Shown here piece after piece: positions 23,455-58,886 of a stretch of 59,826 bases of DNA. Location of the stretch: the NCBI GenBank assembly GCA_009841005.1, contig VXMR01000103.1, positions 1-59,826 of the forward strand. Direction: 5' to 3'. The notes under the pieces were generated by a model that searched no databases, was not told where the DNA came from, and was given only the letters and a program-made list of their open reading frames with translations. This DNA comes from Gemmatimonadales bacterium. Lineage in GTDB: Bacteria > Gemmatimonadota > Gemmatimonadetes > Palauibacterales > Palauibacteraceae. The stretch's first letter is position 1, and every line of letters starts with the position of its first letter. The position numbers and the translations under genes are program-made.

Positions 23455-23904
23455 ATGGTGGAAGTGATTCTGAGAAAGGACGTCGCGGATCTCGGCCTCG
23501 CCGGCGAGATGGTGAACGTGCGGCCGGGGTATGCGCGCAACTACCTGATTCCGCAGGGGATCGCGCTCGTGGCGACGGAGGGGAACCGGAAGCGGTTCGA
23601 GGAGGAGCGGCGCCAGATCGAGCAGTCCGCCGAGCGGGAGCGCGAAGCGGCCCAGCAACTGGCGGGCGAACTGGAGGGCAGGGCGGTGAGTTTCGTCCGC
23701 AGGGCGAGCGAGGGCGGGCGCCTGTTCGGCTCCGTCACGGCCGCGGACATCGCGGACGAACTGGAGAAGGAGGGCGTCGCCGTGGACCGTCGCGCGATCC
23801 GGCTCGAAGATCCGATCAAGGACCTCGGCGAACACGAGGTCCCGGTGAGAGTCCACATGGACATCGAGCCGACGCTCAAGGTGTCCGTGGTCGCCGAGGA
23901 ATAG
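23455..23904 (+). CDS. rplI: Ribosomal protein bL9
   Basis: 149 residues, two globular domains on a long helix, bound to 23S rRNA. MVEVILRKDVADLGLAGEMVNVRPGYARNYLIP contains the family signature GYARNYLIP. The C-terminal domain has LFGSVTAADIADELEKEG. GGAGGG at 23444-23449 is the ribosome site. Confidence 0.97.
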   Translation: MVEVILRKDVADLGLAGEMVNVRPGYARNYLIPQGIALVATEGNRKRFEEERRQIEQSAEREREAAQQLAGELEGRAVSFVRRASEGGRLFGSVTAADIADELEKEGVAVDRRAIRLEDPIKDLGEHEVPVRVHMDIEPTLKVSVVAEE

Positions 23905-25950: not shown

Positions 25951-27530
25951 GCGCCGCCGCCGTCCCGTTCACGTGGGAACTGCCCGCGGATGCGCGGATC
26001 GTGGCGCTCGTCTTCGAGCATTCGGAGGCCGGGCGGAGCGCGACGGTCGTCGATACGATCGCGACCTCCATCGCCCGCCGCCGGGGGCGGACGCTCGTAC
26101 TGAATTCCGAATCCGCGCCGTCGCCCCTCGATGAGCTGGCCGGCGCGCCCGAACGGGCCGAGTCCCGCGGCATGGCGGAGTTCCTCGCGGGCCAGTCCCG
26201 GCTTGCCCGCGTGGCCGTGCGGCGCGCGGACTGCCCCTACGTATACCTGCCGGCGGGACAGGTGCCGGAAGGCGTCGTCGGTCTGCTGGAATCGCCCGCG
26301 CTCGCGCGCTTCGTTTCCCGCGTTAAGGAGGAGGACGGGACGCTCTTCATCGTCATGTCCGAACGCGGGCAGCCCTCCCCCGGCCTGATCGATCTCATCG
26401 ACGGGTACATCGCCGTGGGAAGCGTTCCCCTCGAGGACCACGGCATGCCGTGTTACGGCCACGTACCCTTCGAGTCGAGCGTGGCGCCCACACCAGCTCC
26501 GGGGTCCGAGCCGGCGCCCGCGGAAGACGCGGCCAAGCCCCGGCCGGAGCCCGCGCCCGCGCGGGAGTCCGTGAAAGACGTCGCCGAACCCCTGCCGGAG
26601 CCCGCGCCCACGGCGGCCGCCGAGGCCGATCCGGAGTCCGGGCCCGACCCGGCGCCGGTGGACTCTCCACCGACACCCGGGAAAGCCCGGCACCGCCGCC
26701 CGCGTGGGCCGCTCGTCGCGGCGCTGGCGATCGCGGCGTTGGCGGTCGGGAACTTGTGGGCGTACAGGAACGGGTGGTTCGACAACGCGATCTCCCGTGT
26801 CGGGTCGATGATCGCGGCCCGGAATGAGGCTCCGGCGGCGGCTCCGGCGGAGGTTCCGGCGGCGGAGACGACGCCCGTGGAGGACGGCCCGGCCGCCGAA
26901 GACCCGGGCACGCCGACGGACCTGCCGGAGGGCGCCGCGCTGACGGCTCCGCCGGAGATCGCGGCGCCGGCCTCCATTCCGCCGCCGCCGGACGAGTCTG
27001 CGGTCGCAGCCGCCTTCCAGTCGGCCGCCGAACGGCCCTACTCCGTCCTCCTCGGGAGCTTCAGCGATCCGGCCGAGGCGGCGGAGCGCGTGGCGGAAAT
27101 CCGGACACTTCACGGAGGCGTGCTGTACTTCATGGCCCCCACCACGATCCGGGAGGTCCGGTATCAGCGGATTCTCGCCGGGGCCGTCGCGAGCGAGGCG
27201 GAGGCTTCCGCCCTCATGGACGAACTCGCGGCGGTGGGCGTGGCCCAGGAGGCGAGTGCATGGCTCCTCCGCCCCGTGCGACTCGCGTACGATCTCGGCG
27301 TGTTCACGGATCGCGCGGGGATGGAGGCGCGGATTGCCCAACTCGCGTCGGTCGGCATCCCCGCGTACAGCCTGGAGACGGCACTCGACGGCATGCCGGT
27401 CTTCAGGGTGTACGGCGGCGCGTACGAGAACGAGGCGGCGGCCACCCCCATGAGCGATGCACTCGACGCCGCCGGCGAAAGCGCGCCACTCATCGTGAGA
27501 CGCGGCGCCGCCACTCCTTCAACCCCCTGA
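25947..27530 (+). CDS. Membrane SPOR protein with degenerate BY-kinase/MinD-like domain
   Basis: 527 residues from GTG 25947. Residues 15-175 resemble the P-loop domain of CpsD/CapB tyrosine kinases (order: strand, loop, helix, RTLVLNSE, GMAEFLAG, YVYLPAGQVPEG, LLESPALARF), but the P-loop reads EAGRSAT and the Walker A' and B aspartates are gone, so catalysis is unlikely. A Pro/Ala/Glu linker leads to a membrane helix at 254-272. Outside are a second low-complexity linker and two SPOR-like units, about 364-438 and 446-500. smc begins six bases later. Confidence 0.6.
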   Translation: MSAAAVPFTWELPADARIVALVFEHSEAGRSATVVDTIATSIARRRGRTLVLNSESAPSPLDELAGAPERAESRGMAEFLAGQSRLARVAVRRADCPYVYLPAGQVPEGVVGLLESPALARFVSRVKEEDGTLFIVMSERGQPSPGLIDLIDGYIAVGSVPLEDHGMPCYGHVPFESSVAPTPAPGSEPAPAEDAAKPRPEPAPARESVKDVAEPLPEPAPTAAAEADPESGPDPAPVDSPPTPGKARHRRPRGPLVAALAIAALAVGNLWAYRNGWFDNAISRVGSMIAARNEAPAAAPAEVPAAETTPVEDGPAAEDPGTPTDLPEGAALTAPPEIAAPASIPPPPDESAVAAAFQSAAERPYSVLLGSFSDPAEAAERVAEIRTLHGGVLYFMAPTTIREVRYQRILAGAVASEAEASALMDELAAVGVAQEASAWLLRPVRLAYDLGVFTDRAGMEARIAQLASVGIPAYSLETALDGMPVFRVYGGAYENEAAATPMSDALDAAGESAPLIVRRGAATPSTP

Positions 27531-33574: not shown

Positions 33575-33595
33575 TTCGCCCGATGTCGGCGGTGT

Positions 33596-33610
33596 CCCCG
33601 CGTCGCGGGG
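33596..33610 (+). terminator. Hairpin between SRP RNA and dnaX
   Basis: CCCCG-CGTCG-CGGGG forms a tight hairpin 20 bases past the SRP RNA, without a T run. It may help end or process the SRP RNA while allowing read-through into dnaX. Confidence 0.3.
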
Positions 33611-33672
33611 CGCGGGCGCCCTCAGACCCGAAGGAGTCGAAGCCGGCCGGGGCCGTGACCCGGTCGACCCAG

Positions 33673-35409
33673 ATGGCTCACGAGCCCTTGTACCGCACCG
33701 CGCTGGCCAGAACCTACCGGCCCCGACGCTTCTCGGAGCTGGTCGGACAGGACCACACCGGGTCCACGCTGAAGGCCGCCATCGAGTCCGGGCGCGTCGG
33801 CCACGCGTATCTTTTCTGCGGCCCGCGCGGGGTCGGGAAGACGACGACGGCGCGCATTCTCGCGATGGCCCTGAACTGCCCCGACCGCTCCGGCGGCGAA
33901 CCGTGCGGCACGTGTCCCTCGTGCGAGCGGATCTGGTCCGGCGGCGCCTCGCTCGATGTCGTGGAGATCGACGCGGCGAGCCACCGGGGCGTCGAGGACG
34001 CGCGGGACCTCCGCCGCCGGGCCGCCTACGCGCCCACGAGCGAGGAGCGCTACAAGGTCTACATCCTCGACGAGGCGCACATGCTCACGCGCGATGCGTG
34101 GAATGCGCTTCTGAAGATCCTCGAGGAACCGCCGCCACGCGTGATCTTCGCCTTCGCCACCACCGAGCCGCAGAAGATCGAGCGCGGCGCGGCTCCCGTC
34201 ATGTCCCGGTGCCAGCGATTCGACTTCCGGCGGGTCTCCGTCCGCGACATCGCGGGCCGGCTGGAGACGGTGCTCGAGGCGGAGGGCATCGCGGCCGAGT
34301 CGGCGGCGTTGCGGGCGATCGCGCGCCGGGCCGAAGGCGGCGTCCGCGACGCGCTTTCGTCCCTCGACCAGGTGCTCTCCTTCCGTGGCGACGCGGTGGA
34401 ACTCGCGGACGTCGGCCGCATGCTCGGGCTCGTCGACGAAGATCGATACCTGGCGTTCTTCGAGATTGCGGCGAACGGGGATCGGGCCGGGGTGTTCGCC
34501 TTCGTCCAGGACCTCCTCGACGATGGGCACGACCCCGCGGAGTTTCTGCGCGGACTCGGCGACGCGCTGCGCACCCTCCTGGTGCTGAGGCTCGATCCGG
34601 ACGCCGAGGCGGTCGAACTCCTGCCCGAGTCGCGGGGGCGTTTCCTCGCCGCCGCCGAGGCCCTGGTGCCGGCGGACCTGCTTAGGATGCTCGCCGCCCT
34701 CAGCGAATTCGAGGCCTCCGGCATGCTCCACCGGTCCTCCCAGCCGCGCATCCAGCTCGAGGTCCTGCTCCTGCGTCTCGTCCGCATGGAATCGACCGTC
34801 GAACTCGAGGAACTCCTGGCGGCCCTCGGCGCCCCCGACGGCGAGCCCGCGTCCCGGACGCGAACGCCGAACCCGCCCCGGCACCAGCGCGAGAAACGTC
34901 CTTCTCGGCCCGCTCCCGCTTCCGCGGACCGGTCGCCGGCCCCGCAGCCCGCGCCCTCCGCGGCAGATCGGCGGCAGCGTCAGATGTGTATACCCGACCG
35001 GCCCCCGCCGCCGCCCGCCGACGCCGGAGAGACGGCGCCGTCATCCCCCGTCCGCGATGCGTGGGCGGCGGCGGTCGCCGAGACGCAGGGGCTGGGCGGC
35101 ATGTCCGGGCTGGCTCTGCGCGGCACCGAGGTCGCCGGCCTCGTGAAGGACGAGCTTCGGCTCCGGGTCCAGGCCGGGTGGCGCGAGGAGCTTGAGGAAC
35201 TGCTGAAGGACGATTCGCGTTCCGGCGCCCTCCGCGCGAATCTCGCGGAACGCCTGGGACTGCCGACCGTCAGATTCGCGATCGTCGACCACAAGGGCGG
35301 CCGCATGACCGCCGGGGAAGCGGCCCGGACGCGGGTCGAGCGGCTGCTGGACGGAAACCCGCAGCTGCGGGAAGCCGTGAAGGAACTCGACCTCACCCTG
35401 AAGGAGTAG
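33673..35409 (+). CDS. dnaX: DNA polymerase III subunit gamma/tau
   Basis: Clamp-loader ATPase. 578 residues from ATG 33673 (homology begins at EPLYRTALARTYRPRRFSELVGQ in parts); in-frame GTG 33655 and ATG 33583 are alternatives, the former with AAGGAG at 33631-33636. Walker A GPRGVGKTT from 50, zinc knuckle Cys69, 78, 81, 84, Walker B VYILDEAHML. A Pro/Ala linker (about 390-455) leads to a C-terminal domain. In this linker residues 434-440 (RQRQMCI) are encoded by Nextera adapter sequence, so this stretch is suspect. Confidence 0.93.
   Translation: MAHEPLYRTALARTYRPRRFSELVGQDHTGSTLKAAIESGRVGHAYLFCGPRGVGKTTTARILAMALNCPDRSGGEPCGTCPSCERIWSGGASLDVVEIDAASHRGVEDARDLRRRAAYAPTSEERYKVYILDEAHMLTRDAWNALLKILEEPPPRVIFAFATTEPQKIERGAAPVMSRCQRFDFRRVSVRDIAGRLETVLEAEGIAAESAALRAIARRAEGGVRDALSSLDQVLSFRGDAVELADVGRMLGLVDEDRYLAFFEIAANGDRAGVFAFVQDLLDDGHDPAEFLRGLGDALRTLLVLRLDPDAEAVELLPESRGRFLAAAEALVPADLLRMLAALSEFEASGMLHRSSQPRIQLEVLLLRLVRMESTVELEELLAALGAPDGEPASRTRTPNPPRHQREKRPSRPAPASADRSPAPQPAPSAADRRQRQMCIPDRPPPPPADAGETAPSSPVRDAWAAAVAETQGLGGMSGLALRGTEVAGLVKDELRLRVQAGWREELEELLKDDSRSGALRANLAERLGLPTVRFAIVDHKGGRMTAGEAARTRVERLLDGNPQLREAVKELDLTLKE
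34968..35000 (+). other. Nextera adapter-like sequence inside dnaX (probable artefact)
   Basis: Bases 34972-34992 are identical to 21 consecutive bases of the Illumina Nextera read-1 transposase adapter, including CAGCGTCAGATGTGTATA. Over the full 33-base adapter (34968-35000) 28 positions agree by my alignment; the mismatches are one base near the 5' end and four in the last eight. It encodes RQRQMCIPDR, close to the RQRQMCIRDR peptide that adapter read-through produces. A natural origin is very unlikely. Confidence 0.9.
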
Positions 35410-35427: not shown

Positions 35428-35763
35428 GTGGACGGCGTAAACATCCAGCAGTTGATTCAGCTCAGTCAGCAAATGCAGTCGCGCATGAGCGAGATGCAGG
35501 AGAAGCTCGAGCGCGAGACGATGGTCGCGGCTTCCGGCGGCGGGATGGTGGAGGTGACGGTGGATGGCCAGGGGAACATCAAGGGCGTCTCCATCGACCC
35601 CGCCGTCGTGGACCCGGAAGAGGTCGAGATGCTCGAGGACCTCATCGTCGCCGCGGCCTCCGCGGCGCAGCGGCGGGCGAAGGACCGAATGGAGAGTGAA
35701 ATGCGTCAGGCTGCGGGAGGCCTGCCGCTGCCGGGTCTGGGCAACATCCTCGGCGGTCCGTGA
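35428..35763 (+). CDS. YbaB/EbfC nucleoid-associated protein
   Basis: 111 residues from GTG 35428. A helical QQLIQLSQQMQSRMSEMQEKL start (quoted in part), then VEVTVDGQGNIKGVSIDP and LEDLIVAAASAAQRRAKD are the family core; it dimerises and binds DNA. Gene order dnaX-ybaB-recR is widely conserved. AACAGGAGAA at 35411-35420 gives the ribosome site. The stop overlaps recR. Confidence 0.93.
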   Translation: MDGVNIQQLIQLSQQMQSRMSEMQEKLERETMVAASGGGMVEVTVDGQGNIKGVSIDPAVVDPEEVEMLEDLIVAAASAAQRRAKDRMESEMRQAAGGLPLPGLGNILGGP

Positions 35764-36347
35764 ACGCCATCGAAGCGCTCGTGGGCGAATTCGGCCGGCT
35801 CCCCGGGATCGGTCGCAAGACCGCGCGGCGCCTCACGTATCACCTTCTCAGGAATTCGAAGGACGATACCCGGCGCCTGGCACGGGCCCTGGAACGGATC
35901 GCGGCCGAGGTCCGCGTGTGCGGCATCTGCGGCAACCTCAGCGACATGGACCCGTGCGAATACTGCAGCAGTCCGAGGCGCGACCCGGCGCAGGTGTGCG
36001 TCGTGGAGGAGGCCTCGGACATTCCGGCGATCGAGAACTCGGGGAACTTCGCGGGGCAGTATCATGTACTTGGCGGACGGTTGTCCCCTCTCGATGGGGT
36101 GGGGCCCGATGACCTGAATATCCGGGCCCTGCTTCGGCGTCTCGACACCCCGATCCGGGAGGTGATCATCGCGACGAACGCGAGCGTCGAGGGAGAGGCG
36201 ACGGCGACGTACCTGCAGCGCCTGCTCGCCTCGGCCGCCGATGTCACGGTCACACGCCTCGCGCGCGGGCTGCCCGTGGGGGGGGACCTCGAGTACGCCG
36301 ACGGAGTGACGATCGCCGAAGCCTTCGCCGGCCGACGGGAGATGTAG
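35760..36347 (+). CDS. recR: Recombination protein RecR
   Basis: Works with RecF/RecO to load RecA on gaps. 195 residues from GTG 35760. N-terminal helix-hairpin-helix LPGIGRKTARRL, zinc finger CGICGNLSDMDPCEYC (Cys x4), Toprim domain with VVEEASDIPAIE, and C-terminal GLPVGGDLEYADG. All standard. Confidence 0.97.
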   Translation: MNAIEALVGEFGRLPGIGRKTARRLTYHLLRNSKDDTRRLARALERIAAEVRVCGICGNLSDMDPCEYCSSPRRDPAQVCVVEEASDIPAIENSGNFAGQYHVLGGRLSPLDGVGPDDLNIRALLRRLDTPIREVIIATNASVEGEATATYLQRLLASAADVTVTRLARGLPVGGDLEYADGVTIAEAFAGRREM

Positions 36348-36352
36348 CAGCG

Positions 36353-36703
36353 ATGACGACTCGAATCGAATACGAAGATGCGGACCGCCGTTCCGCGACG
36401 GGCTGGAAGATCGCGGCCGCGGCCCTGCTGGGCGCCGCCGCGGCCGTCGGCCTCGGGATCTATCTCGCGCGGGATCAGATGCGCCGCCACCGGCGCGAAC
36501 TGTTCAGTCCGCATCCGCTCCGGCGCCTGGCCGCCCTCGGATACCTGAAGTCGCACCCGTCCGTGGACGATCTGCCGCTGTTGAGAGATTATCTGGCATG
36601 GGAGGAGCGACCGCTCCTCCGCAAGCGCGCGACGGCGGTTCTGGAGAGTCTCGAGAGCGTGCTCGCGAGCGACGAGGTCCTGGAGAGCGGAGACCCACAC
36701 TGA
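36353..36703 (+). CDS. Small membrane-anchored protein, HEAT-like tail
   Basis: 116 residues. A membrane helix at about 18-40 (GWKIAAAALLGAAAAVGL) is followed by a basic patch and a helical pair [16 protein letters not shown] / LLRDYLAWEERPLLRKRA that resembles one or two HEAT units. No known family. Located five bases after recR; its TGA overlaps the CTG proposed as the pgsA start. Confidence 0.6.
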   Translation: MTTRIEYEDADRRSATGWKIAAAALLGAAAAVGLGIYLARDQMRRHRRELFSPHPLRRLAALGYLKSHPSVDDLPLLRDYLAWEERPLLRKRATAVLESLESVLASDEVLESGDPH

Positions 36704-37329
36704 ATCTCCCGAACACGATTACCACGGGCCGGATTCTCGCGGCTCCCGTCGTGACGGCGCTGCTCCTGCAACCTCGTCCGGCGCCGCGCATGATCGCGTT
36801 CGTCGTGTTCGTCCTCGCCGCGCTCTCGGATCTGTGGGACGGACACCTGGCCCGAGCCCGCGGCGAGGTGACCTCCTTCGGCAAGATCGTCGACCCGCTG
36901 GCGGACAAACTGCTGCTCGTCGCCGCCCTCATCCCCGTCTACAGCATCAATCTCGGGCAGGCGGGAAGCCCGTCTCTCCCCCTGTTCCGCGTCATTCCGC
37001 TCTGGGCCATTGTCATCTTCCTGGGGCGCGAGGCGCTGATCACGCTGCTCCGCTCCTTCGCCGCGCGGCGCGGGCGGATCGTCGCGGCGCAGATCCTGGG
37101 AAAGAGGAAGGCGCTCGCGCAGAACATCTTCATCGGCTCCGCGATCCTCTGGGTCGCGTTCCTGACGCCCGGCTTCGTGGCCCCCGGCGGCCGGGCGTGG
37201 CAGTGGTTCTCCGCCTTCCACGGATGGTTCACGACGACCTTTCTCACCCTCGCCGTGTTGCTCACCCTGGCCTCCGCCGTGACCTATCTGGGCACGTTTT
37301 CGCGCCTCATGGCGGGTCGCCATTCGTAA
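36700..37329 (+). CDS. pgsA: CDP-alcohol phosphatidyltransferase, probable PgsA
   Basis: Makes phosphatidylglycerophosphate from CDP-diacylglycerol. About 209 residues with five or six membrane helices. The motif D-x2-DG-x2-AR-x8-G-x3-D-x3-D is complete in DLWDGHLARARGEVTSFG KIVDPLAD. CTG 36700 overlaps the upstream stop as CTGA and would give (M)NLPNTITTGR, exactly the normal PgsA opening. The nearest canonical start, ATG 36598, would add 34 non-conserved residues deep inside the previous gene. Confidence 0.88.
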   Translation: MNLPNTITTGRILAAPVVTALLLQPRPAPRMIAFVVFVLAALSDLWDGHLARARGEVTSFGKIVDPLADKLLLVAALIPVYSINLGQAGSPSLPLFRVIPLWAIVIFLGREALITLLRSFAARRGRIVAAQILGKRKALAQNIFIGSAILWVAFLTPGFVAPGGRAWQWFSAFHGWFTTTFLTLAVLLTLASAVTYLGTFSRLMAGRHS

Positions 37330-37342
37330 GGGCGGTCCGTCG

Positions 37343-37807
37343 CTGGTCGAGGCCGCCGCGACGCTCATCGAAGGCCTGCGGGAGAGGGGTCACACCCTGG
37401 TGCTCGCCGAGAGTTGCACGGGCGGCCTGATCGGCGCCGCCCTCACGGCTGTACCCGGAGCGTCGAAGGTTTTGTGGGGTGGGCTGATAAGCTACGATGA
37501 CGACGCCAAAAGGGAGCTGCTGAAGGTGTCGGAGGCGTCGCTCCACCGGTACGGCGCCGTTTCGCGGGCGGTGGCGGAGGAGATGGCCGCCGGGGCGCGG
37601 CGCGTGGCGGAGAGCACCTGGTCCATCGCCGTCACGGGAATCGCCGGGCCCTCGGGGGGATCCGCCGAGAAGCCCGTGGGCACGGTGTGGATCGCCCACG
37701 ACGGCCCCTCCCGCGACGCGCGGTGCCACCGCTTCGGGGGGAGCCGGGACGAGATCCGGGAAGCTGCCGCGCTGGAAGCGATGCGCTGGCTGGATTCGCG
37801 GCTTTGA
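37343..37807 (+). CDS. CinA C-terminal domain protein (nicotinamide-nucleotide amidase type)
   Basis: About 154 residues; PncC-like enzymes deamidate NMN. TLVLAESCTGGLIGAALTAVPGAS (core AESCTGG with catalytic Ser) and VTGIAGPSGGSAEKPVGTVWIA (core GIAGPSGG) are diagnostic. The conserved first helix (VEAAATLIEGLRERG) has no ATG, GTG or TTG before it: the frame is open from 37283 and the first canonical start is GTG 37400, inside the beta strand. CTG 37343 with AAGGG at 37328-37332 is the best initiator. Confidence 0.85.
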   Translation: MVEAAATLIEGLRERGHTLVLAESCTGGLIGAALTAVPGASKVLWGGLISYDDDAKRELLKVSEASLHRYGAVSRAVAEEMAAGARRVAESTWSIAVTGIAGPSGGSAEKPVGTVWIAHDGPSRDARCHRFGGSRDEIREAAALEAMRWLDSRL

Positions 37808-37829
37808 CGAGCACACTCGAGGATATTCG

Positions 37830-38456
37830 ATGGGAACGAGGGATCTGGAACAGGAAATGGAGAGCGCGCCGCCGGAGGATACCGCTCCGGAGGACGTCGC
37901 TCCGGAGGCCGCCGGCGACGCCGCCGAGCCCGATGCGCCTGCGCCGGAGACTCCCGGGCACGTGGACGAGGTCGGTCCGCCCGAGTCCGGCGAGGATCTC
38001 GGGCCGGCGGAGGAACTCGCGGCGCTGCAGGACCGCCACCTCCGGCTCGCGGCGGAGTTCGACAACTTCCGGCGCCGGACGAGGGGCGAGTTGGGCGATG
38101 CGGGGGAGCGGGCGCGCGCGGAACTCGCCGGCAAGCTGCTCGAAACGATGGATGACCTGCAGCGCGTGGCCGACACGCCGCTCGAGGGCACGACGACGGA
38201 GGCCCTGCACGAGGGGATCGGGCTCGTGGCCCGGAAGTTCGCGAAGGTCCTCTCCGACAACGGCGTGGAACCGGTGAACCCCGTAGGCGAGCGCTTCGAT
38301 CCCAACCTCCACGACGCTCTGATGATGACCCCGACGGACGACCCGGAGCAGGACGAACTCGTGTCGCACGTCGTCCTGATCGGATACCGGCTCGGCGACC
38401 GGCTGCTTCGCCCCGCGCGCGTCACGGTCTACCGCCACGAAGCGGAAGCTTCCTGA
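37830..38456 (+). CDS. grpE: Nucleotide exchange factor GrpE
   Basis: Releases ADP from DnaK. 208 residues: an acidic Pro/Ala/Glu N-terminal tail (about 65 residues), then the coiled coil [20 protein letters not shown] (DNFRRR is diagnostic), and the beta domain [17 protein letters not shown] and RPARVTVYR. No dnaK or hrcA is adjacent, and no CIRCE operator was seen upstream. Confidence 0.93.
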
Positions 38457-39609: not shown

Positions 39610-40707
39610 TCAGTTTGAGACGATGACGCCGCCGCCGAGGACGAGATCGTCCCGGTAGAGCACGGCGCTCTGGCCCGGCGTGATGGCCGACTGCGGCACG
39701 GGCAGCTCCAGCGAGAAGCCCGTCGGCGTCGCCTCGATGACCTCCGCCTCGACGATCGCGGCACCATGCCGGATCCGCACCCCGATGCGCTCGCCCCCGT
39801 CGGGAGGCTCGGCCAGCCAGTTCGCACCCTCGGCGCCGATGCGCGAGCGGGCCAGGGAGGCCCGCGGCCCGATGATGACGTCGCGCGACTCCGGCCGGAT
39901 CTCGAGCACGAACATCGGTTCGGGAAGGCCGCCCGGGAGCCCCTTGCGCTGTCCCACGGTGTAGTGTGCGTAGCCCGGGTGCTCGCCCGCATCGGAGCCG
40001 TCCTCGAAGCGGATGGCGCCGGGTGAGAGGGCAGGGTGGTCCTCCGGCAGGTACCGGCGCAGGACCCCGGCGTAGTCGTTGTCGGGGACGAAGCAGATCT
40101 CGAACGACTCCGGCTTGTCCGCCGTGTCGAGGCCGAGCCGCCGCGCCTCCGCGCGGACCTGTGGCTTCGTCAGCTCGCCGACCGGCAGGAGCAGACGGTC
40201 GAGCGCCTCGCGGGGCATCCCCCACAGGAAGTACGTCTGATCCTTGTGGTCATCCGCGCCGAGGTGGAGTTCCGGAGGGCCGGAGCGGGGTCGGACCACG
40301 CGCGCGTAGTGCCCCGTCGCCAGCCAGCGGCAGTCCAGCGCGTCCGCCCGCACGAGGAGGTCCCGGAACTTCGTGAAGCTGTTGCAGCGGACGCACGGGA
40401 TCGGTGTGCGGCCGGCCGCGTACTCCGACACGAAGTCGTCGATCACGTCGCGCGTGAACTCCTCCTCCACGTCGAACACGTGGTGCGGCATGTCGAGCTG
40501 GGCGGCGACGGACTTGGCGTCCGCGATCCCGTCGAGGCCGCAGCAGGTGCGCGTGGGGCCCTCGCTGCCGGTGTAGCAGAAGGTCTTCATCGTCACGCCG
40601 ATGATCGGTCGGCCTTCGCGCGCCAGCAGCGCCGCGGTGAGCGACGAGTCCACGCCGCCGGACATGGCGACGAGCACGGCGTCCGCGAGGCGGCTCGGGG
40701 CGATCAT
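39610..40707 (-). CDS. mnmA: tRNA-specific 2-thiouridylase MnmA
   Basis: Thiolates U34 of Lys, Glu and Gln tRNAs. 365 residues. PP-loop SGGVDSS at 16-22, catalytic Cys in TPIPCVRCNSFTKF, second Cys in SFEICFVPDND, and GHYARV with DQTYFLWG. The usual nucleotide-binding segment contains TRTCCGLDGIADA. The cysteine desulfurase encoded 12 bases upstream is the probable sulfur donor. The tRNA-Gln(UUG) of this window is a natural substrate. Confidence 0.93.
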   Translation of the reverse strand: MIAPSRLADAVLVAMSGGVDSSLTAALLAREGRPIIGVTMKTFCYTGSEGPTRTCCGLDGIADAKSVAAQLDMPHHVFDVEEEFTRDVIDDFVSEYAAGRTPIPCVRCNSFTKFRDLLVRADALDCRWLATGHYARVVRPRSGPPELHLGADDHKDQTYFLWGMPREALDRLLLPVGELTKPQVRAEARRLGLDTADKPESFEICFVPDNDYAGVLRRYLPEDHPALSPGAIRFEDGSDAGEHPGYAHYTVGQRKGLPGGLPEPMFVLEIRPESRDVIIGPRASLARSRIGAEGANWLAEPPDGGERIGVRIRHGAAIVEAEVIEATPTGFSLELPVPQSAITPGQSAVLYRDDLVLGGGVIVSN

Positions 40708-40719
40708 GGATGCGCGATC

Positions 40720-41892
40720 TCAGGCCGTGATGGCGACGACCCGCGCCGCCACCCGCGCAAGCGCGTCCGCCGCCTTGTCGACGTCCGCCCGGGACGTGTC
40801 GTGGCCGAAGCTGAAGCGCACGGCCGCGTACGGGACGTCGCTGGTGATCCCGATCGCGTCCAGCACGTCGGAGCCGACGCTCGAGTCGGAGCCGCAGGCC
40901 GATCCGCCCGAGGCCGCGATCCCCTCGAAATCGAGGGAGACGAGCACGGCTCCGCTGTCACACCCCGGGATCCCGATGCTGACGAGATTCGGCATCCGCA
41001 GCGGCGCGTCGCCGGCATGGATCCGGGCGTCGGGGATCTCCGCGCGGATCCGCGCCTCGAGGTGATCCCGCAGCGCGATCCAGCGTGCGACCTCTGCCTC
41101 GCGGTCCTCGAGCGCGAGCGCGAGTGCGGCCGCGAAACCCGTCGCGCCGATCGGGTTCTGCGTGCCCGGCCACATGGACCGTTCCTGGCCGCCCCCGTAG
41201 CTCAGCGGCTCCAGCGTCACCCCCGGGCGCAGGTAGAGGAGGCCGATCCCCACGGGCCCGCCGAGCTTGTGCGCCGTAGCCGAGAGGAGATCGACCGGCG
41301 TCCGCTCCAGATCGCAGTCCACCTTCCCCAGGGCCTGCACGGCGTCCGTGTGTACGACCGCCCCGTACTCGTGGCCCAGCTCCACGATCTCCCCCATCGC
41401 CTGGACCGTGCCGATCTCGTTGTTCGCCCACATCACCGAAATCAGCGTCGGCGCGTCCGGGTCCGCCGCGAGTTCCCGCCACAGCCATCCGAGGTCGATC
41501 GTCCCCGACCCGTCCACGGGAATCCGCGCCACGCGGGCTCCCTCCACCGCGCCGCGATCCCCCGCCTCGAGGCATGCCTTGTGCTCGATCTCGGACACGA
41601 ACACGCGCGGACTCCGCCCCGGATTCGACCGCACGAAGCCGAGGATCGCGAGGTTGTCGGACTGTGTGCCACCGCCCGTGAAGTAGATGGATGACCGCGC
41701 GCACCCGAGCAGATCCGCGATCCGCCCGCGCGCGACCTCGAGGCAGCGATGGGCCCGCCGTCCCGGGGCATGGGCGCTCGCGGGATTGAAGCCGTGCCGC
41801 AGCTCCGCCCCCATCGCCTCCCATACCTCCGGCCGCATGGGCCAGGTCGCCGCGTAGTCGAGGTAGAGTCTCTCTTCTTCCCGCTGTGTCAT
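40720..41892 (-). CDS. Cysteine desulfurase (NifS/IscS family)
   Basis: PLP enzyme that moves sulfur from cysteine to a protein persulfide. 390 residues. LYLDYAATWPMRPEVWEAM opens the fold, SATAHKLGGPVGIG carries the PLP lysine, and GGSACGSDSS carries the active Cys. Pairing with mnmA suggests dedication to tRNA thiolation; general Fe-S supply is also possible since no isc or suf genes are visible here. Confidence 0.9.
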   Translation of the reverse strand: MTQREEERLYLDYAATWPMRPEVWEAMGAELRHGFNPASAHAPGRRAHRCLEVARGRIADLLGCARSSIYFTGGGTQSDNLAILGFVRSNPGRSPRVFVSEIEHKACLEAGDRGAVEGARVARIPVDGSGTIDLGWLWRELAADPDAPTLISVMWANNEIGTVQAMGEIVELGHEYGAVVHTDAVQALGKVDCDLERTPVDLLSATAHKLGGPVGIGLLYLRPGVTLEPLSYGGGQERSMWPGTQNPIGATGFAAALALALEDREAEVARWIALRDHLEARIRAEIPDARIHAGDAPLRMPNLVSIGIPGCDSGAVLVSLDFEGIAASGGSACGSDSSVGSDVLDAIGITSDVPYAAVRFSFGHDTSRADVDKAADALARVAARVVAITA

Positions 41893-43145: not shown

Positions 43146-44444
43146 CTACTCGTAGCGCAGCGCTTCGATCGGATCCAGCGCTGCGGCCCGCGAAGCCGGG
43201 TAGAGTCCGAAACCGATCCCGGTGAGCACCGATGCCGCAAGGGCCGCCACGATGGACCACAGTGGCACGACGGCCGGGAGCGGCGTGAGCGCGTTCACGA
43301 CCCAAACGATTGCGCCGCCCATCAGCATCCCGGTCGCTCCGCCCAGCAGCGTGAGCGTGGCCGCCTCGACCAGGAATTGCCACATGATGTCCCGCCGCCG
43401 TCCGCCCATCGCCTTCCGCAACCCGATCTCCCGCGTCCGCTCCGTCACGGAAATCATCATGATCCCGATCACGCCGACCCCCCCCACCATGAGCCCGATG
43501 CTCGACAACCCGAGCATCGCCGCAAACAGGACGTTTGTCAGTTGACCCCAGAGATTCAGCAATTGCTCCTGGGTCAGCACCGCGAAGTCGTCCTCCTCGG
43601 CTGGCTCCAGTTGGCGAAGCTGCCGCATCCGCGCGTGCGTCGCGTCGCGCGCCATCTGAAGGTCGGCTTCGGGTTCCGGCCGCACGATGATGCTGACGGC
43701 CCGGTCCCAGACGGGCAGCAGCTTGTCCGCGCTCGCGAACGGTACCCACACGTAGTGCGACGCGAGGCCGGCGAACAGGTTGGCCGGCACGCGGTACACG
43801 CCGACCACGCGGAACATGGCTCCGCGGCTGCCTTCGCCGATCCGGATCTCGCGGCCGAGCGGATTGAGCGACCCGAACAGGTCGGCCGCCACGGTGGAAT
43901 CGATCACGGCGACGGGCGCCCGCCGCTCGGCCTCGGGGTGCGTGAACCAGCGGCCCGAGATGAAGTCGCCGCTGTAGATCTCGAGATAGTCGGCCCCGAC
44001 CCCGTAGAACGAGATCTCGACACGATCCGATCCGACGCTCGCCTCGAAGGCCCCCGGACCGAAATCGCCGGTGAGTTCGACGAACGGAGATGCGCTCCGG
44101 ATGCCCGGGATGCGTCCGAGGTCCCTGGCCCACCGCGGATCGAGGGGTTTGTTCCGGAACAGGTCCGGCTCCTCCTCGCCCAGAGGGCCGCCACCGAAGC
44201 CCCCCGACGTGAAGTCCCAGTGCGCCACGTAGAACGTCTCGACGCCGTTCGGAGACATCGCGTCTTCGAAGCTCTTGTTGATGCCGGTGATCGCGGCCGC
44301 CATCACCATGACGACGAGCACGCCGATGGTGACGCCCAGGATCGTGAGGCCGCTCCGAACCTTGTTGGCGCCGATCGAGTCGAAGGCGACCGCGATCCCT
44401 TCGGTGACCGTTGACAAGAAGCCCATGCCGCCACGAGCGGTCAT
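43146..44444 (-). CDS. MacB-type ABC permease (copy 3 of the cluster)
   Basis: 432 residues: N-terminal membrane helix, large periplasmic MacB-like domain (about 50-280), then three membrane helices with the FtsX-type motif SVTERTREIGLRKAMGGRR and end ASRAAALDPIEALRYE. It exports by mechanotransmission with an ATPase and adaptor. Very similar to the neighbour at 44519-45811, especially at both ends; the periplasmic part differs more. Confidence 0.9.
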   Translation of the reverse strand: MTARGGMGFLSTVTEGIAVAFDSIGANKVRSGLTILGVTIGVLVVMVMAAAITGINKSFEDAMSPNGVETFYVAHWDFTSGGFGGGPLGEEEPDLFRNKPLDPRWARDLGRIPGIRSASPFVELTGDFGPGAFEASVGSDRVEISFYGVGADYLEIYSGDFISGRWFTHPEAERRAPVAVIDSTVAADLFGSLNPLGREIRIGEGSRGAMFRVVGVYRVPANLFAGLASHYVWVPFASADKLLPVWDRAVSIIVRPEPEADLQMARDATHARMRQLRQLEPAEEDDFAVLTQEQLLNLWGQLTNVLFAAMLGLSSIGLMVGGVGVIGIMMISVTERTREIGLRKAMGGRRRDIMWQFLVEAATLTLLGGATGMLMGGAIVWVVNALTPLPAVVPLWSIVAALAASVLTGIGFGLYPASRAAALDPIEALRYE

Positions 44445-44518
44445 ACGCGCCTCCCCATCGCCCGCGGCTTCCGTCGCGTGCCGGAGTCAGGTCGCGCGTT
44501 TAACGCCGCGGGAGAGGA

Positions 44519-45811
44519 CTACTCGTAACGCAACGCGTCGATGGGGTCCAGACCCGCGGCCCGGGAGGCCGGGTAGAGTCCGAAGCCGATACCGGTCAGA
44601 ATCGAGGCCGCCAGCGCGGCCACGATCGACCACATCGGCACGACGGCGGTGAGCGGCGTGGCCTGGTTCACGATCCACACGAGCCCGCCTCCGAGCACCA
44701 TCCCCGTCGCCCCGCCGAGCAGCGTGAGCGTGGCCGCTTCCACGAGGAATTGCCACATGATGTCCCGGCGGCGTCCGCCCATCGCCTTGCGGAGCCCGAT
44801 CTCGCGGGTCCGCTCCGTGACGGAGATCATCATGATGCCGATGACGCCGACACCACCGACCATGAGCCCGATGCTCGACAGGCCGACCATGGCGGCGAAG
44901 AGCACGTTCGTCAGCTGGCCCCAAAGCGCCATCATCTGATCGGGAGTCATGATGGCGAAGTCGTCTTCCTCGCCGATCTGCAATCCCCGCAACTGCCGCA
45001 TACGGGCGCGGGTCGCGTCGAGCGCGGTTTGCAGCTCCGTCTCCGGTTCCGGCCGCACGACGAAGCTGATCTGCCGATCCCATACCCGCAGCAGCTTGTC
45101 GGCCGTCGCAAAGGGCATCCACACGTAGTGCGAAACCAGGCCGGCGAAGAGATTGGCGGGCACCCTGTAGATGCCGACCACGCGGACCCTCGCGTTCTCG
45201 CTGCCCCGGCCGACCCGGATGTCCCGTCCGATCGGATCCCGCGTGCCGAACAGCTCCACCGCCGTGGCCGAGTCGATCACGGTGACCGCAGCGCGCCGGT
45301 CGGCCTCCGACTGCGTGAACCAGCGGCCCGCGATGATATCTCCGCCCGAGATCTCGATGTAGTCGGCGCCAACTCCGTAGAGTCCGATCTCGACCCGGTC
45401 GCCGCCGGAGGAGGCCTCGTATCCCGACCCCGCGAGGTCCACGATCGGCGCCGCGCTCCGGATCCCCTCGATCCGGCCCAGTTCCTTCGTCCATTCAGGC
45501 TCGAGCGGAGGGTTCTTGAAGAAGGCGTCCTCGCCTTCCTCCAGCGGACCGCTGATCTGCATGGAGGAAAAGTCGAAGTGCGCCACCCAGAAGGTCGTGA
45601 CCCCCTCAGGGGCCATCAACTCCGAGAAGCTCCGGTTGATCCCGGTGATCACCGCCGCCATGACCATGACGACGAGGACTCCGATCGTCACCCCGAGGAT
45701 CGTGAGACCGCTCCGTACCTTGTTCGCCCCGAGCGAGTCGAAGGCGACGGCGATCCCCTCGGTGACCGTCGCGATGAACCCCATGCCGCGCCCGCGCCCG
45801 CGCCCGCTCAT
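44519..45811 (-). CDS. MacB-type ABC permease (copy 2 of the cluster)
   Basis: About 430 residues from the ATG at 45811, seven bases after the previous permease's stop; an upstream extension to 45901 is less likely. Same layout as copy 3 (MGFIATVTEGIAVAFDS start, SVTERTREIGLRKAMGGRR, DPIDALRYE end). The pair looks like a tandem duplication that has diverged in the periplasmic domain (MAPEGVTTFWVAHFDFSS against MSPNGVETFYVAHWDFTS). Confidence 0.9.
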   Translation of the reverse strand: MSGRGRGRGMGFIATVTEGIAVAFDSLGANKVRSGLTILGVTIGVLVVMVMAAVITGINRSFSELMAPEGVTTFWVAHFDFSSMQISGPLEEGEDAFFKNPPLEPEWTKELGRIEGIRSAAPIVDLAGSGYEASSGGDRVEIGLYGVGADYIEISGGDIIAGRWFTQSEADRRAAVTVIDSATAVELFGTRDPIGRDIRVGRGSENARVRVVGIYRVPANLFAGLVSHYVWMPFATADKLLRVWDRQISFVVRPEPETELQTALDATRARMRQLRGLQIGEEDDFAIMTPDQMMALWGQLTNVLFAAMVGLSSIGLMVGGVGVIGIMMISVTERTREIGLRKAMGGRRRDIMWQFLVEAATLTLLGGATGMVLGGGLVWIVNQATPLTAVVPMWSIVAALAASILTGIGFGLYPASRAAGLDPIDALRYE

Positions 45812-45818
45812 CGCAGCC

Positions 45819-47063
45819 TCACTCGAACCTGAGGGCTTCGATCGGGTCGAGCCGCGCCGCCCGATACGCGGGATAGAGGCCGGAGGCGATCCCAACCCCA
45901 AGCCCGAGAATGAGGGAGATGATCATCGCGGGCACCGATATCGCGGCCGGCAGCGGCGTAAGCCGTTCGACGATCAGCGCCATCCCGAATCCGGATCCGA
46001 TACCCAGAGCTGCGCCCAGGATCGAGAGTGTCGATGCTTCGGTCAGGAACTGGAAGAGGACGTCGCGGCGCCGGGCTCCGAGAGACTTGCGGAGTCCGAT
46101 CTCGCGCGTCCGGTCCGTGACCGAGAGCAGCATGATGTTCATGATCACGATGCCGCCCACCACCAGCGAGATCCCGACCAGCCCGGGGAGCGCCGTCATC
46201 AGCACCCGGTTGATCGTCTCCCACGCGTCGAGAAGCCCGCTCGACGTGTCGATGCCGAAAGTGTTCGGTTCGGAGGGCCGCAGGCGCCGGTTGGAGCGCA
46301 TCGCGCCCTCCACCTCCGCCATGGCCGGCTCGAGTTCGTCGATCGATCCCATCTTGACGGTGATCCCGTCGACCTCCAGCCGCCGGCGCGCCACCGTGCG
46401 CTGAAACGTCTCGAAGGGAACGAGTACGGCCGCATCGCGCAGGTTCCCGGCGAAGCCGCCCTGGGCCTCCAGCACGCCGACGACCCTGAAACCGTGCCCG
46501 CCCGCCCGGATGCGCTTGTCGATGGGCGAGGTCGTGGGGAAGAGCCGTTCGGCGATCTGGGAACCGATGACGGCGACGGCGAGCGCCTGCTGATCATCGA
46601 TCGGCGTCAGGCCGCGCCCATCCACCACCTTCCACCCCTGGACGGCCTCGTACTCCGGCGAGCCCCCGACCATGAGGACATTGCGCCGCTCGTACTGCCC
46701 GTAGCGAACCGAGCCCGCGACGTCCCGCGCATAGTAGCCCAGGTACTGGGCGTCGGGCGCCGCGGCCTGCACGACCGCCACGTCCTCCATGGTGAGCTGG
46801 GGATTGCGACGCTGCCGGCGGCGCTCGGCCTCATCGATGCGCCCCGTTACGATCTGAGGACGCCGGACGACGGTGAAGGTGTTCACGCCGAAGAGCGAAC
46901 CCGCGAAGTCGTCGCGCACATAGCTGTTCATGCCCTCGACGATCGTGATCACCGCAATGAGGAACGTGATCCCGATGATGATGCCGAGGAGCGCGAAGAA
47001 CGACTTCAGCTTCTGCGTCCATACCTGTTGCAGCGACAGGCGAATGCCCTCCCAGAATCTCAT
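45819..47063 (-). CDS. MacB-type ABC permease (copy 1 of the cluster)
   Basis: 414 residues with the same architecture, but only distantly similar to the other two. N-terminus MRFWEGIRLSLQQVWTQKLKS, motif SVTDRTREIGLRKSLGARRRD, end ARLDPIEALRFE. It is the permease closest to the ATPase (21 bases). Confidence 0.9.
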   Translation of the reverse strand: MRFWEGIRLSLQQVWTQKLKSFFALLGIIIGITFLIAVITIVEGMNSYVRDDFAGSLFGVNTFTVVRRPQIVTGRIDEAERRRQRRNPQLTMEDVAVVQAAAPDAQYLGYYARDVAGSVRYGQYERRNVLMVGGSPEYEAVQGWKVVDGRGLTPIDDQQALAVAVIGSQIAERLFPTTSPIDKRIRAGGHGFRVVGVLEAQGGFAGNLRDAAVLVPFETFQRTVARRRLEVDGITVKMGSIDELEPAMAEVEGAMRSNRRLRPSEPNTFGIDTSSGLLDAWETINRVLMTALPGLVGISLVVGGIVIMNIMLLSVTDRTREIGLRKSLGARRRDVLFQFLTEASTLSILGAALGIGSGFGMALIVERLTPLPAAISVPAMIISLILGLGVGIASGLYPAYRAARLDPIEALRFE

Positions 47064-47084
47064 CGGCGGAGCGTCGCGCGGCCG

Positions 47085-48085
<1,001 letters not shown>

Positions 48086-48089
<4 letters not shown>

Positions 48090-49396
48090 CGTCCGTCCTC
48101 TCCGTTGATCGCGGCGTCGCTTCCTCCGCTGCCGTCGCCGTTGACGGCGGCCCCGGGCCCCGGCCCGTCGATCTGGATCCGGCTCCCGTCGCCGAGTTCG
48201 CGGATCGCCTGGAACGAGCCGGAGACCACGGTCGTGCCGAGTTCGATCCCCGAGACGACCTCGAAGTAGTTCTCTCCGGCGATACCGATCTCGACGGGCC
48301 GGAAGCGGACGATGTCCCCCTCCACGACGAAGACGCCCTCGATATCCCGCGCCGCGTCGGAGCCCGGAGCGCTCGGCAGATTCTCGTTCGGGATCTCCTC
48401 GTATTCGTCCGCATCCATCAGCGTCAGCGCCGTGATGGGGATGCTGGGCACCTGGTCGCGGGTGGCCGTGATCACGTCCGCCGTGGCGGACAGGTCCGGC
48501 CGGATCCCTTCGGGCGGCTCACGAAGCTCGATGCGCACCTCGAAGTCGATCGCCTGGGCCGAACCTCCGGACGTGGCGGGATTCAGGGGAACGATCGAGC
48601 TGTTGCCGATCTCGGTGACGGTCCCCACGAAACGCCGGTTCGGAAAAGCGTCGATCTCGACGTAGGCGGAATCGCCGATGGAGATATCGGGTACGTCCGT
48701 TTCGTCCACCTCGATCACGGCCTCCATGACGGAAAGGTCCGCGACGGTGAGGAGCAGGCTTCCCGGATTGTTCATCGTCCCGACGATCGCGGTCTCGCCG
48801 CGCTCGACGTTGAGCCGCGTGATCCGGCCGGACATGGGCGCCCGGATCGTCGTCTTCCCGAGCCGGTCACGCTCCTGGTCGAGGTTCGCCTCCGCCTGCT
48901 GCACGGAATGTTCCGAAGCCTCGAAGAGCCGGTGCTGGACCTCGGCGTTTGTCACCGCCTGTTCAACCTCCGCCTCGGTCACGAAGTCGGTCCCTCGCGC
49001 CTGCAACGCCGTGAGACGATCCGCGTCCCGCTGCGCCTGCTCGTATGCCGCCCGCTGCTGGGCGAGGGTGGCCTGCGCCTGCGCCACCCCGGCCTCCGCC
49101 CGGTTGACCGCCGCGCGGAAGAGGGCCGGGTCGATCTGAAGCAGGAGGTCTCCCTCCTCCACGTCCTGCCCTTCCTCCACCGGGAGTTCGATGATCCGCC
49201 CGGCGACGTCGGTCGTGATGTCCACGTGCGTCTTGGGTTCTATATGGCCTGTCGCGGAGACGTCGTCGATGAGATCCCGCAGCCCTACGGCCTCTACGCG
49301 GACTTCGACGGCGCCACGCCCTTCCCGCTGCATGGCGAGGAATCCCATGGTCGCGAGAAGCCCAACCACGACGACCGCGATGATCGCTTTCTTCAT
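48086..49396 (-). CDS. HlyD/MacA-type periplasmic adaptor
   Basis: About 436 residues from ATG 49396 (a TTG at 49405 would add three). Signal anchor [21 protein letters not shown], lipoyl-like halves [28 protein letters not shown] (parts) and [21 protein letters not shown], a coiled-coil hairpin between them, then beta-barrel and membrane-proximal domains. It links the MacB-type permeases to an outer-membrane duct; no TolC gene is present here. Confidence 0.9.
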
Positions 49397-49425
49397 CCTG
49401 TACAACGACCTTTATTTCGAGATTC

Positions 49426-49461
49426 AAAGGGCTGCCTATACGACATGGGCTGCCTATGCGA
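49426..49461. repeat. Two 18-bp direct repeats upstream of the efflux operon
   Basis: AAAGGGCTGCCTATACGA (49426-49443) and CATGGGCTGCCTATGCGA (49444-49461) are tandem and share 14 of 18 bases, including GGGCTGCCTAT. On the minus strand they read TCG(C/T)ATAGGCAGCCC and lie 30-65 bases before the adaptor start. A second pair, CCTCCGAGA and ACTCCGAGA, adjoins at 49462-49480. They look like repressor or activator sites, or doubled promoter elements. Confidence 0.6.
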
Positions 49462-49566
49462 CCTCCGAGATACTCCGAGACTCGAGTCGCGCCCAAGGGT
49501 ACGTCCGCACCGCCCGCTCAGTTTCATCTCCTTCTTGGAGAAGCTCAGCTGCACGGGGCCCGCTGT

Positions 49567-50292
49567 TCACCCTCCCAGGCCCGCCGCGGCTGCGCCCAGT
49601 GAGATCATCAGAAAATAGAGCACGAGCAGGTAGGTTGTGCCTGCCACCACGGAGCGCCCCGGATAGATGCGGCTGACCGCGACCCCGAGCACCACGCACG
49701 TCCAAACAGCGAAGATGTTGATTCCGTTTACGAACCTGCCAACGAATCCCCCCATCTCGGGCAGGAAGAGACCCGGCGTCAGGACCGGATTCTCCGAACC
49801 GAGCACCATGAGGACGATTACGACGAGTCCTCCGGCCAGGTTGATATAGAAGGCATGGGCGCCCGCGCTGAAGAGTTGCCGGAACGTACCCTCGCCGCCA
49901 AGAAACACGTTGAAGGCGAGCAGCAGGAGCCCTGCAACGAGGCTGAGCGCGATCGGCGTGACGAAGACGGCGCCGGCGCCGAACACGACTGGAGACCACT
50001 GGAGCCAGAACTCGATCTGTTGCTCGGCTATCGCGGGATCGGAGCCCGCAGCGACGAACTGGGTCTCAAACATCGTCCGCCGGACCTCCTCGGGCACGAT
50101 GACCGGCGTGAGGAATTGAAGCGCGAGGCTGAGGCCGATGAGCCCCAGGACAGCGCCCATCCAGGCGGGGCGGTGGCGGAGGGCGTCAAAAAGCTTCGCC
50201 GGCGAGACGAAGACCTGCACGATGCGTGCGGGCAGGGAGGGGATCGCGTGCTCCTCCGCCGATGCGTCGGACGATTCCGGATGGTGTTCCAT
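49567..50292 (-). CDS. Yip1-family membrane protein
   Basis: 241 residues with about five membrane helices after a cytosolic N-terminus. RIVQVFVSPAKLFDALRHRPAWMGAVL is the family entry pattern (SPAKLFDALR and W). Bacterial Yip1-domain proteins have no firm role. It lies 39 bases after the exported protein and 170 bases before the efflux adaptor; the intervening bases have a small hairpin (CTCC TTCTT GGAG near 49530) and the direct repeats. Confidence 0.75.
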   Translation of the reverse strand: MEHHPESSDASAEEHAIPSLPARIVQVFVSPAKLFDALRHRPAWMGAVLGLIGLSLALQFLTPVIVPEEVRRTMFETQFVAAGSDPAIAEQQIEFWLQWSPVVFGAGAVFVTPIALSLVAGLLLLAFNVFLGGEGTFRQLFSAGAHAFYINLAGGLVVIVLMVLGSENPVLTPGLFLPEMGGFVGRFVNGINIFAVWTCVVLGVAVSRIYPGRSVVAGTTYLLVLYFLMISLGAAAAGLGG

Positions 50293-50307
50293 CTTCTCCT
50301 CCAGTCT

Positions 50308-50341
50308 GTCTCAGCCCTCGTCTGGTCCGTCTCAGCCCTCG
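50308..50341. repeat. 13-bp direct repeat with 21-bp period at a stop codon
   Basis: GTCTCAGCCCTCG occurs at 50308-50320 and 50329-50341. The second copy contains the stop codon of the exported-protein gene (minus strand CGAGGGCTGAGAC), and the first is a duplicate just after it. Confidence 0.7.
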
Positions 50342-51030
50342 GCCGGGGCGCGCAGGGCCTCGCGGCCCGCGGCGTCCACGACGCGGAGCAGCCGGTCGTC
50401 CGCGTCGAGCCACACCCGGTGCCGGGCGCCTTCCACGTCCACCTCGTAAAGGGTCGCGTCCACCGACTCCTCGCCGAGCGAAACGCTCTCCTCGGTCCGG
50501 GCGGCCAGCCGCATCGTCACGGTCCGGCCCTCGAGGGGCAGGATCGCCTTCAACCGCCCGTCCGGCGCTTCTCTGAGCGCCCGCACGAGGACGAGATGGT
50601 GATGCGCGATCCCCGGCTCGAAGATCGCGGCCGCATCCTGGACCGGGTACTGCTTCCAGCGCTCGCCCTCCGGGGTCGCGAAGTGGAAGCGGACCCGGTC
50701 CGGGAAGCGCTCCCCGCTCACAACAGCCGATACACCTTCGCGAACCTCGTATTTCACCGGCAGCAGGTCGAGGTCCATCTGGAGCCGCACCTGCCAGGCG
50801 GGCCGCTGCACCCTCTCGACGCTGGCGAACGCGTTCACGGTGGATCCGGTCTGCCAGACCCGGAAGCGCTCCGTCCCCACGCGGCGCCCCGCTTCGCGCA
50901 GATACAGATGGCCGGCGTCGAGTTCCTGCGCGGCCAGCGGAAGGGGGTCCGGAAGGCCGGCGAGGAGCGAACTCAGCAGGAGCGCTCCGAGCGCCCGCGC
51001 CCTGCGCGATGACCTTACTCTCTTCTCCAC
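50332..51030 (-). CDS. Exported protein of unknown function (DUF3108-like)
   Basis: 232 residues from GTG 51030. Signal peptide RARALGALLLSSLLAG with cleavage expected after LPLAAQ. The mature part is all-beta (GHLYLREAGRRVGTERFRVW, VRLQMDLDLLPVKYEV), resembling the beta-sheet lipid-binding-like DUF3108 group in its V-G-T-E-R pattern, but that link is weak. A 21-bp tandem repeat overlaps its stop codon. Divergent from comM. Confidence 0.6.
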   Translation of the reverse strand: MEKRVRSSRRARALGALLLSSLLAGLPDPLPLAAQELDAGHLYLREAGRRVGTERFRVWQTGSTVNAFASVERVQRPAWQVRLQMDLDLLPVKYEVREGVSAVVSGERFPDRVRFHFATPEGERWKQYPVQDAAAIFEPGIAHHHLVLVRALREAPDGRLKAILPLEGRTVTMRLAARTEESVSLGEESVDATLYEVDVEGARHRVWLDADDRLLRVVDAAGREALRAPAEG

Positions 51031-51132
51031 TCTTCGCCTCGTTCCCGGGCCGCTTTGAGAACCGGTTGAGACCGATGCCGATCCTCGACTCACGGTGAAG
51101 TTACAAGGCTGCGCGGACGGGAGCGACGAAGA

Positions 51133-52668: not shown

Positions 52669-52708
52669 CGATGCCGCCGGTGTAGCGCGGCGTTGGCGTT
52701 GTGCGGCG

Positions 52709-58467: not shown

Positions 58468-58863
58468 TTGGCGGAATCGGAACAGGTCCAGTCGGTCGGA
58501 CGCCGGAAGAAGTCGGTGTCCCGCATCACGATGAAGCGTGGCGTGGGCGTCGTGAACGTGAATGGCCGGCCGTTCGAGGAGTATTTCACGATCCCGCGAC
58601 ACCGTTCGGTCGTCGCGGCGCCCCTCGACGTCACCGGGACGCGAGCGTCGTACGACATCGCCGTCCGGGTCCGCGGGGGGGGCATCACCGGCCAGGCGGA
58701 GGCCACGCGCCTGGGCATCGCGCGCGCCCTCCTCGCGATGGATGAGGACCGCCGGCGCACGTTGCGGTCCCACGGCATGCTGACCCGCGATCCCCGCATC
58801 GTCGAGCGGAAAAAGCCGGGTCGTCCCAAGGCGCGCAAGCGCTTCCAGTTCTCCAAACGATAG
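58468..58863 (+). CDS. rpsI: Ribosomal protein uS9
   Basis: 131 residues from TTG 58468. SVGRRKKSVSRITMKRG, VRGGGITGQAEATRLGIARAL (parts) and the basic end RKKPGRPKARKRFQFSKR with the P-site tail KR are standard. The 54-base gap before it contains an imperfect 18-bp repeat (GCGCACAGGGACGACAGA, GCGCACACGGACGGCCAG). Confidence 0.95.
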   Translation: MAESEQVQSVGRRKKSVSRITMKRGVGVVNVNGRPFEEYFTIPRHRSVVAAPLDVTGTRASYDIAVRVRGGGITGQAEATRLGIARALLAMDEDRRRTLRSHGMLTRDPRIVERKKPGRPKARKRFQFSKR

Positions 58864-58886
58864 CGGGAAGGCGGAAAGCCGAGCGC

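Follow-up and report, generated by a model that had tools for sequence, protein, structure and literature searches.

Positions 34965-35000 of the window, the stretch of 59,826 nucleotides analysed here, which is the entire contig C116 of a bacterial genome assembly of 3.16 Mb in 158 contigs, are almost certainly an artefact of reading through into the Nextera library adapter, whatever the step that joined it to its flanks. Compared with G004, the sole other genome marked as the same species and separately assembled, the change reads as a same-length replacement, neither an insertion nor a visible gap, within an ordinary dnaX gene. The kind of assembly artefact is known; what is unusual is where it lies, deep inside a contig, and that it replaces sequence in frame at unchanged length. 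Being an assembly error, the adapter remnant is uninformative on biology, and its relevance is one of data quality only: the annotated DnaX has 12 false residues.

The adapter match and its order

A preliminary description of this DNA, made from the sequence alone, had recognized 21 bases of the Nextera read-1 adapter in the dnaX linker. An exact copy of CGGCAGCGTCAGATGTGTATA is indeed present on the forward strand at 34972-34992; it is the single match in the whole window when up to 3 mismatches are allowed, none of 100 dinucleotide shuffles of the window contains one, and the expected count of such an exact 21-mer is about 7e-9. The agreement claimed over the whole 33-base adapter was also reproduced: in an ungapped comparison the best match in the window starts at 34968, with 28 of 33 bases identical over 34968-35000, and the match never exceeded 22 in 200 mononucleotide shuffles. 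Neither the whole 33-mer nor the 19-base mosaic end has a match in the window at 3 mismatches or fewer, because the mismatches are clustered. BLAST with a 70-base query made of adapter, index and P5 aligns on the minus strand to 34959-34992 (query 9-42, 91%, E = 3.7e-7), extending the match 9 bases upstream of what had been claimed and into the i5 index TCTTACGC, which we take to be one of Illumina's S5xx set. Read along the minus strand, genuine sequence runs to 35001 and is followed by an error-laden CTGTCTCT, by TATACACATCTGACGCTGCCG, by (A to C)CGA and by the TCT of the index; the order of a read-through (insert, mosaic end, read-1 adapter, i5 index) is thus the order found at 34965-35000 (Table 1). 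Searches of viral contigs with the error-laden 24-mer, and of phage records by megablast with 34600-35409, gave no match.

Table 1. Features of the altered dnaX gene and adapter tails at contig ends of the same assembly
Feature	Position	Strand	Basis or remark
dnaX (DNA polymerase III subunit gamma/tau)	33583..35409	+	608-aa ORF; TIGR02397; relatives
Overwritten segment, 36 bases foreign to the genome	34965..35000	-	G004 comparison and adapter/index match
First three i5 index bases, TCT of TCTTACGC	34965..34967	-	full index at C141 and C52 ends
Exact 21 bases of Nextera read-1 adapter, read direction TATACACATCTGACGCTGCCG	34972..34992	-	second exact copy near C141 end
Error-laden first eight adapter bases, CGGTCGGG for CTGTCTCT, read direction	34993..35000	-	same string at a G006 contig end, near variants in G002 and G003
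Read-1 tail, read direction	C52 end (L003)		adapter, TCTTACGC, P5-like bases, poly-A, G-rich end
Read-1 tail	C141 end (L002)		adapter, TCTTACGC, P5-like bases, poly-A, G-rich end; second exact 21-mer copy
Degraded copy	C42 end (L175)		BLAST E 0.03, 76%; kept for its poly-A and poly-G tail
Read-2 version of adapter	C27, C83, C132 ends (L006, L008, L009)

The host gene is an ordinary dnaX, its ORF matching TIGR02397 above the threshold of this curated model (E = 1.6e-114, 382.9 bits, cut-off 250). As had been stated, the frame stays open through the adapter, where the translation reads ...AADRRQRQMCIPDRPPPPP...; the altered segment corresponds to ORF residues 462-473 in the Pro/Ala-rich interdomain linker, so that an otherwise ordinary gamma/tau linker carries adapter-encoded residues at this place. 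The peptide RQRQMCIRDR, to which this translation had been likened as a well-known product of read-through, was not found in the literature text searched.

The 5' end of the ORF is uncertain between 33583 and 33672, with an alternative start at ATG 33673 (MAHEPLYRTALARTY). The first 30 codons are in frame in three relatives (G007, G008 and G009), and the reading frame is lost just upstream of residue 30 in three others (G004, through a 2-base indel at 33658, G012 and G014). As these last genomes leave the upstream frame, ATG 33673 may be the true start.

What was replaced

Aligned with the window over 34501-35409 (an item listed at 34500 is the alignment edge), G004 differs at 25 of the 36 bases of 34965-35000, with a net length change of zero, and at none of the 873 flanking bases (34501-34964 and 35001-35409). 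Local BLAST places one insertion and one deletion inside the segment, again with a net change of zero, and the sequence identical to G004 ends on the left at 34964, not 34967, and restarts on the right at 35001. Given this divergence at equal length, 36 bases, or 12 linker residues, were overwritten in frame rather than inserted. Most of the segment (31 of 36 bases) matches the adapter followed by three index bases, 11 bases match G004, 7 match both and one, at 34993, matches neither; at 4 of the 36 positions the base is that of G004 and not that of the adapter. At the protein level, the window reads DRRQRQMCIPDR and G004 PPQRASARQSAP, residues 462-473 differing at all 12 positions. The 21-mer has no match in the G004 assembly at up to 2 mismatches.

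Alignment of the linker with other relatives gives the same picture. Three further members of the genus (G012, G013 and G014) carry the G004-type sequence at the site, an ordinary linker and not adapter, and five more distant ones (G001, G005, G007, G008 and G009) have linkers of other sequence and length, none adapter-like there; because the linkers of these distant members differ in both respects, the exact bases can be tested only against the closest genomes. Judging from these sequences, a Pro/Ala-rich linker like that of its relatives is very probably what the organism really has. The suspicions of an adapter origin, of a local mis-assembly and of a partial loss of the true linker are all supported by the separately assembled same-species G004 and by other Nextera tails in the window's own assembly.

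G004 is a different strain, as seen from its other differences in the compared part of the window (21803-58728, with 1-21802 and 58729-59826 left out). The bins at 34000-34500 and 35500-38000 hold no difference and, outside a strongly diverged stretch at 45.5-52.7 kb, the differences are single bases, one 2-base indel and one 12-base indel. Four places considered as further patches (23570-23733, 33584-33664, 40609-40776 and 55014-55212) were rejected, as they consist of scattered single-base differences and the 2-base indel at 33658. The 12-base indel, at 26832-26843, is clean: the window has a GC-rich stretch there that G004 lacks.

An error-laden adapter start

The bases at 34993-35000 had been proposed to mark where real sequence resumes, a proposal that has to be given up. 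In the read direction they are CGGTCGGG, against CTGTCTCT in the adapter (three T to G changes and one C to G), they differ from G004 at four of eight positions (34993, 34997, 34998 and 35000), and as an error-laden adapter start they recur elsewhere in the genus: G006 has the same 29-base string CGGTCGGGTATACACATCTGACGCTGCCG at the end of its contig C81, its dnaX being on contigs C15 and C27. Near variants of CGGTCGGG also stand at contig ends in G003 (CGGTCGGT) and G002 (CGGTCGCG). The preliminary description had held that the same sequence in independent isolates would speak against an artefact; the 29-base string is indeed found again in G006, but at a contig end without dnaX, which is exactly what a library artefact predicts.

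All 11 read-1 tails examined in the genus (four in the window's own genome, the window included, and seven in four other genomes) have 2-8 mismatches to the 19-base mosaic end, the figure of 8, for G003:C21, being inflated by an indel, and the substitution seen most often is T to G, with 21 of 47 in 10 tails (the window included and G003:C21 left out). By comparison, in a sample of public genome contigs the first eight adapter bases are perfect in 118 of 126 cases, and never have more than 2 mismatches in the 126, among the matches listed. This sample of at least 119 stretches was chosen by the exact 21-mer and is biased to copies clean in those 21 bases, the eight bases compared lying outside the selecting 21-mer. 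From the contrast between these mostly clean starts and the tails of the genus, we infer that clean adapters were trimmed in the project and only error-laden copies survived.

A mosaic of adapter and genome, column by column, was considered as the sole cause of the mismatches, as 35 of the 36 bases match one or the other, which suggested a vote. It was dropped, since CGGTCGGG precedes the adapter at the G006 contig end, with near variants in G002 and G003; given this recurrence, the first eight bases are explicable by base-call errors without a contribution of the genome. A consensus vote at the left edge of the segment is possible.

The seven error-laden read-1 tails of the other genomes are at contig ends of G002, G003, G006 and G009 (L178, L179-L184); some of the G003 tails carry the i5 index of the window's own genome, and the G006 tail carries another.

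Adapter tails at contig ends and one inside a contig

Two BLAST queries, of read-1 and read-2 type, find seven adapter places in the own assembly (remaining read-1-query matches with E > 0.3 being left out): the window, which is the only internal one, and six whose matches stop no more than 43 bases short of a contig end (C52, C141, C42, C27, C132 and C83; Table 1). These six copies are read-through tails of short inserts, and the adapter together with the complete index recurs in two of them (C52 and C141). Poly-G is typical of two-colour instruments. All six error-laden tails are still present in the public record of the assembly. Two matches to the P5 part (C78:5921 and C154:3747) are internal and have no adapter beside them; they were taken to be chance matches.

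The copy in the window does not share this contig-end location, being 34.9 kb away from one end of C116 and 24.8 kb from the other. None of the 126 matches listed from the public contig sample is more than 500 bases from a contig end (the farthest at 470), and the seven places in other genomes of the genus, which were searched for the read-1 adapter only, are all within 71 bases of one. The window copy is thus the internal exception to the listed sample matches, to the seven places of its own genome and to the seven of its relatives.

Moeller et al. (2024, BMC Genomics 25:1033, PMC11536531) report that microbial assemblies are widely contaminated with adapters, mainly at the extremities of contigs, and describe a removal of 450 bases if an adapter is within 300 bases of an end. 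The present case resembles the one described there in that an Illumina adapter was kept in a published assembly and is tied to breaks in contiguity, six of the seven places of the own genome being at contig ends. Unlike that pattern, the window copy is 24.8 kb from the nearest end and has errors in its first eight bases, and it derives from Nextera, a word absent from the main text of that paper. Owing to the internal position and these errors, exact-match screening of contig ends would miss it.

The linker as a probable weak spot, and possible routes of joining

In G004 the 221 bases of the linker have a GC content of 83%, and the richest 100 bases reach 91%, more than any 100-base stretch of the window (sampled every 10 bases). 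In four of 16 other genomes of the genus (G002, G003, G006 and G013), dnaX is on two contigs that both end at the linker. In G015 only a weak C-terminal piece is found, at a contig start, and in G010 only the N-terminal part was matched, away from a contig end. With this extreme composition and these splits, the linker seems to be a fragile place in short-read assembly: an adapter-bearing read that had survived could determine the sequence there. The adapter was considered as the cause of the breaks in the relatives and rejected: nine contig ends in the linker or close to it (in G002, G003, G006, G013 and G015) show no clear adapter, matching read-1 or read-2 at no more than 12 of 20 bases, in an ungapped comparison that is blind to tails of fewer than 20 bases. 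A reservation applies to G002:C77, which ends in strikingly AT-rich bases.

The following course of events would account for the segment. A short library insert ended near 35001 on the minus strand, the read running on into the adapter and the i5 index, as the match and its order show. Several base-call errors at the adapter start, mostly T to G, would have let the tail escape trimming. The linker, GC-extreme in G004, was probably poorly covered, and the surviving read tail would have given the contig its sequence over 36 positions, genuine sequence presumably resuming from 34964. The outcome is a same-length, in-frame replacement that kept the ORF open. For the join itself, the adapter tail may have been adopted in 36 columns by a consensus or bubble step; this route accounts for a length equal to that in G004.

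Could the two sides have been joined otherwise? The adapter tail may have overlapped the GC-rich left flank spuriously, a linker of unknown length being dropped; we hold this route possible but rather doubtful. Three errors (T to G, A to C and T to G) turn the index and following bases, CTTACGCGT, into the left flank CTGCCGCGG, the BLAST match to adapter and index reaches as far as 34959, with two index mismatches that are T to G and A to C in the read direction, and the splits of dnaX at contig ends in the linker fit such a join. However, the shared string is only 9 bases long, and the stretch is replaced 36 for 36 relative to G004, which a random overlap would rarely give: a simple chance overlap leaves the equal length unexplained. 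The consensus and overlap routes give the same artefact.

A physical chimera of library preparation, in which an insert-adapter-insert molecule was sequenced and assembled, is very improbable: an internal adapter between two genuine stretches would give the picture seen here, but the two flanks follow G004 in order and at the expected distance, and a joined molecule would rather be expected to bring unrelated or shifted pieces. That the segment is a genuine strain-specific linker resembling the adapter by chance or descent is scarcely conceivable since, although the frame is open and DnaX linkers diverge fast between species, the exact 21-mer is not expected by chance, its match continues into a library index, the same error-laden string ends another contig in G006, and the divergence from G004 is confined to the segment between flanks without a single difference.

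Consequences for data use

Users of linker, low-complexity or k-mer data need to mask 34965-35000 and the contig ends listed above. The own genome and four others of the genus hold error-laden contig-end tails that a search for a clean adapter start would let pass, and internal positions call for error-tolerant adapter screening. We tentatively raise the possibility that adapter tails with T to G starts silently overwrite GC-extreme linkers inside high-GC metagenome contigs. If so, the case in the window would belong to a broader class, in which false residues in an open frame are missed by adapter screens of contig ends, and whose mark would be TATACACATCTGACGC-like strings, with up to 4 mismatches, more than 1 kb from contig ends.

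Other features of the window

On the minus strand, 43146-47063 holds three consecutive genes for MacB/FtsX-type permeases, followed by an ABC ATPase (47085-48089) and an HlyD-like membrane-fusion gene (48086-49405). A 766-aa ORF at 50332-52632 (minus strand), in the diverged stretch, has no Pfam or NCBIfam match at E 0.001, and may not be the coding strand, given a 511-aa ORF (51133-52668) opposite. Each of the first two permease genes matches the G004 counterpart of the other, with a DNA identity of about 75%. The stretch at 45500-52715 is strongly diverged from G004, with up to 161 differences per 500 bases between nearly identical flanks, and the 49 bases at 52667-52715 are replaced in G004 by about 1.16 kb; 45500-52715 may be a locally exchanged segment.
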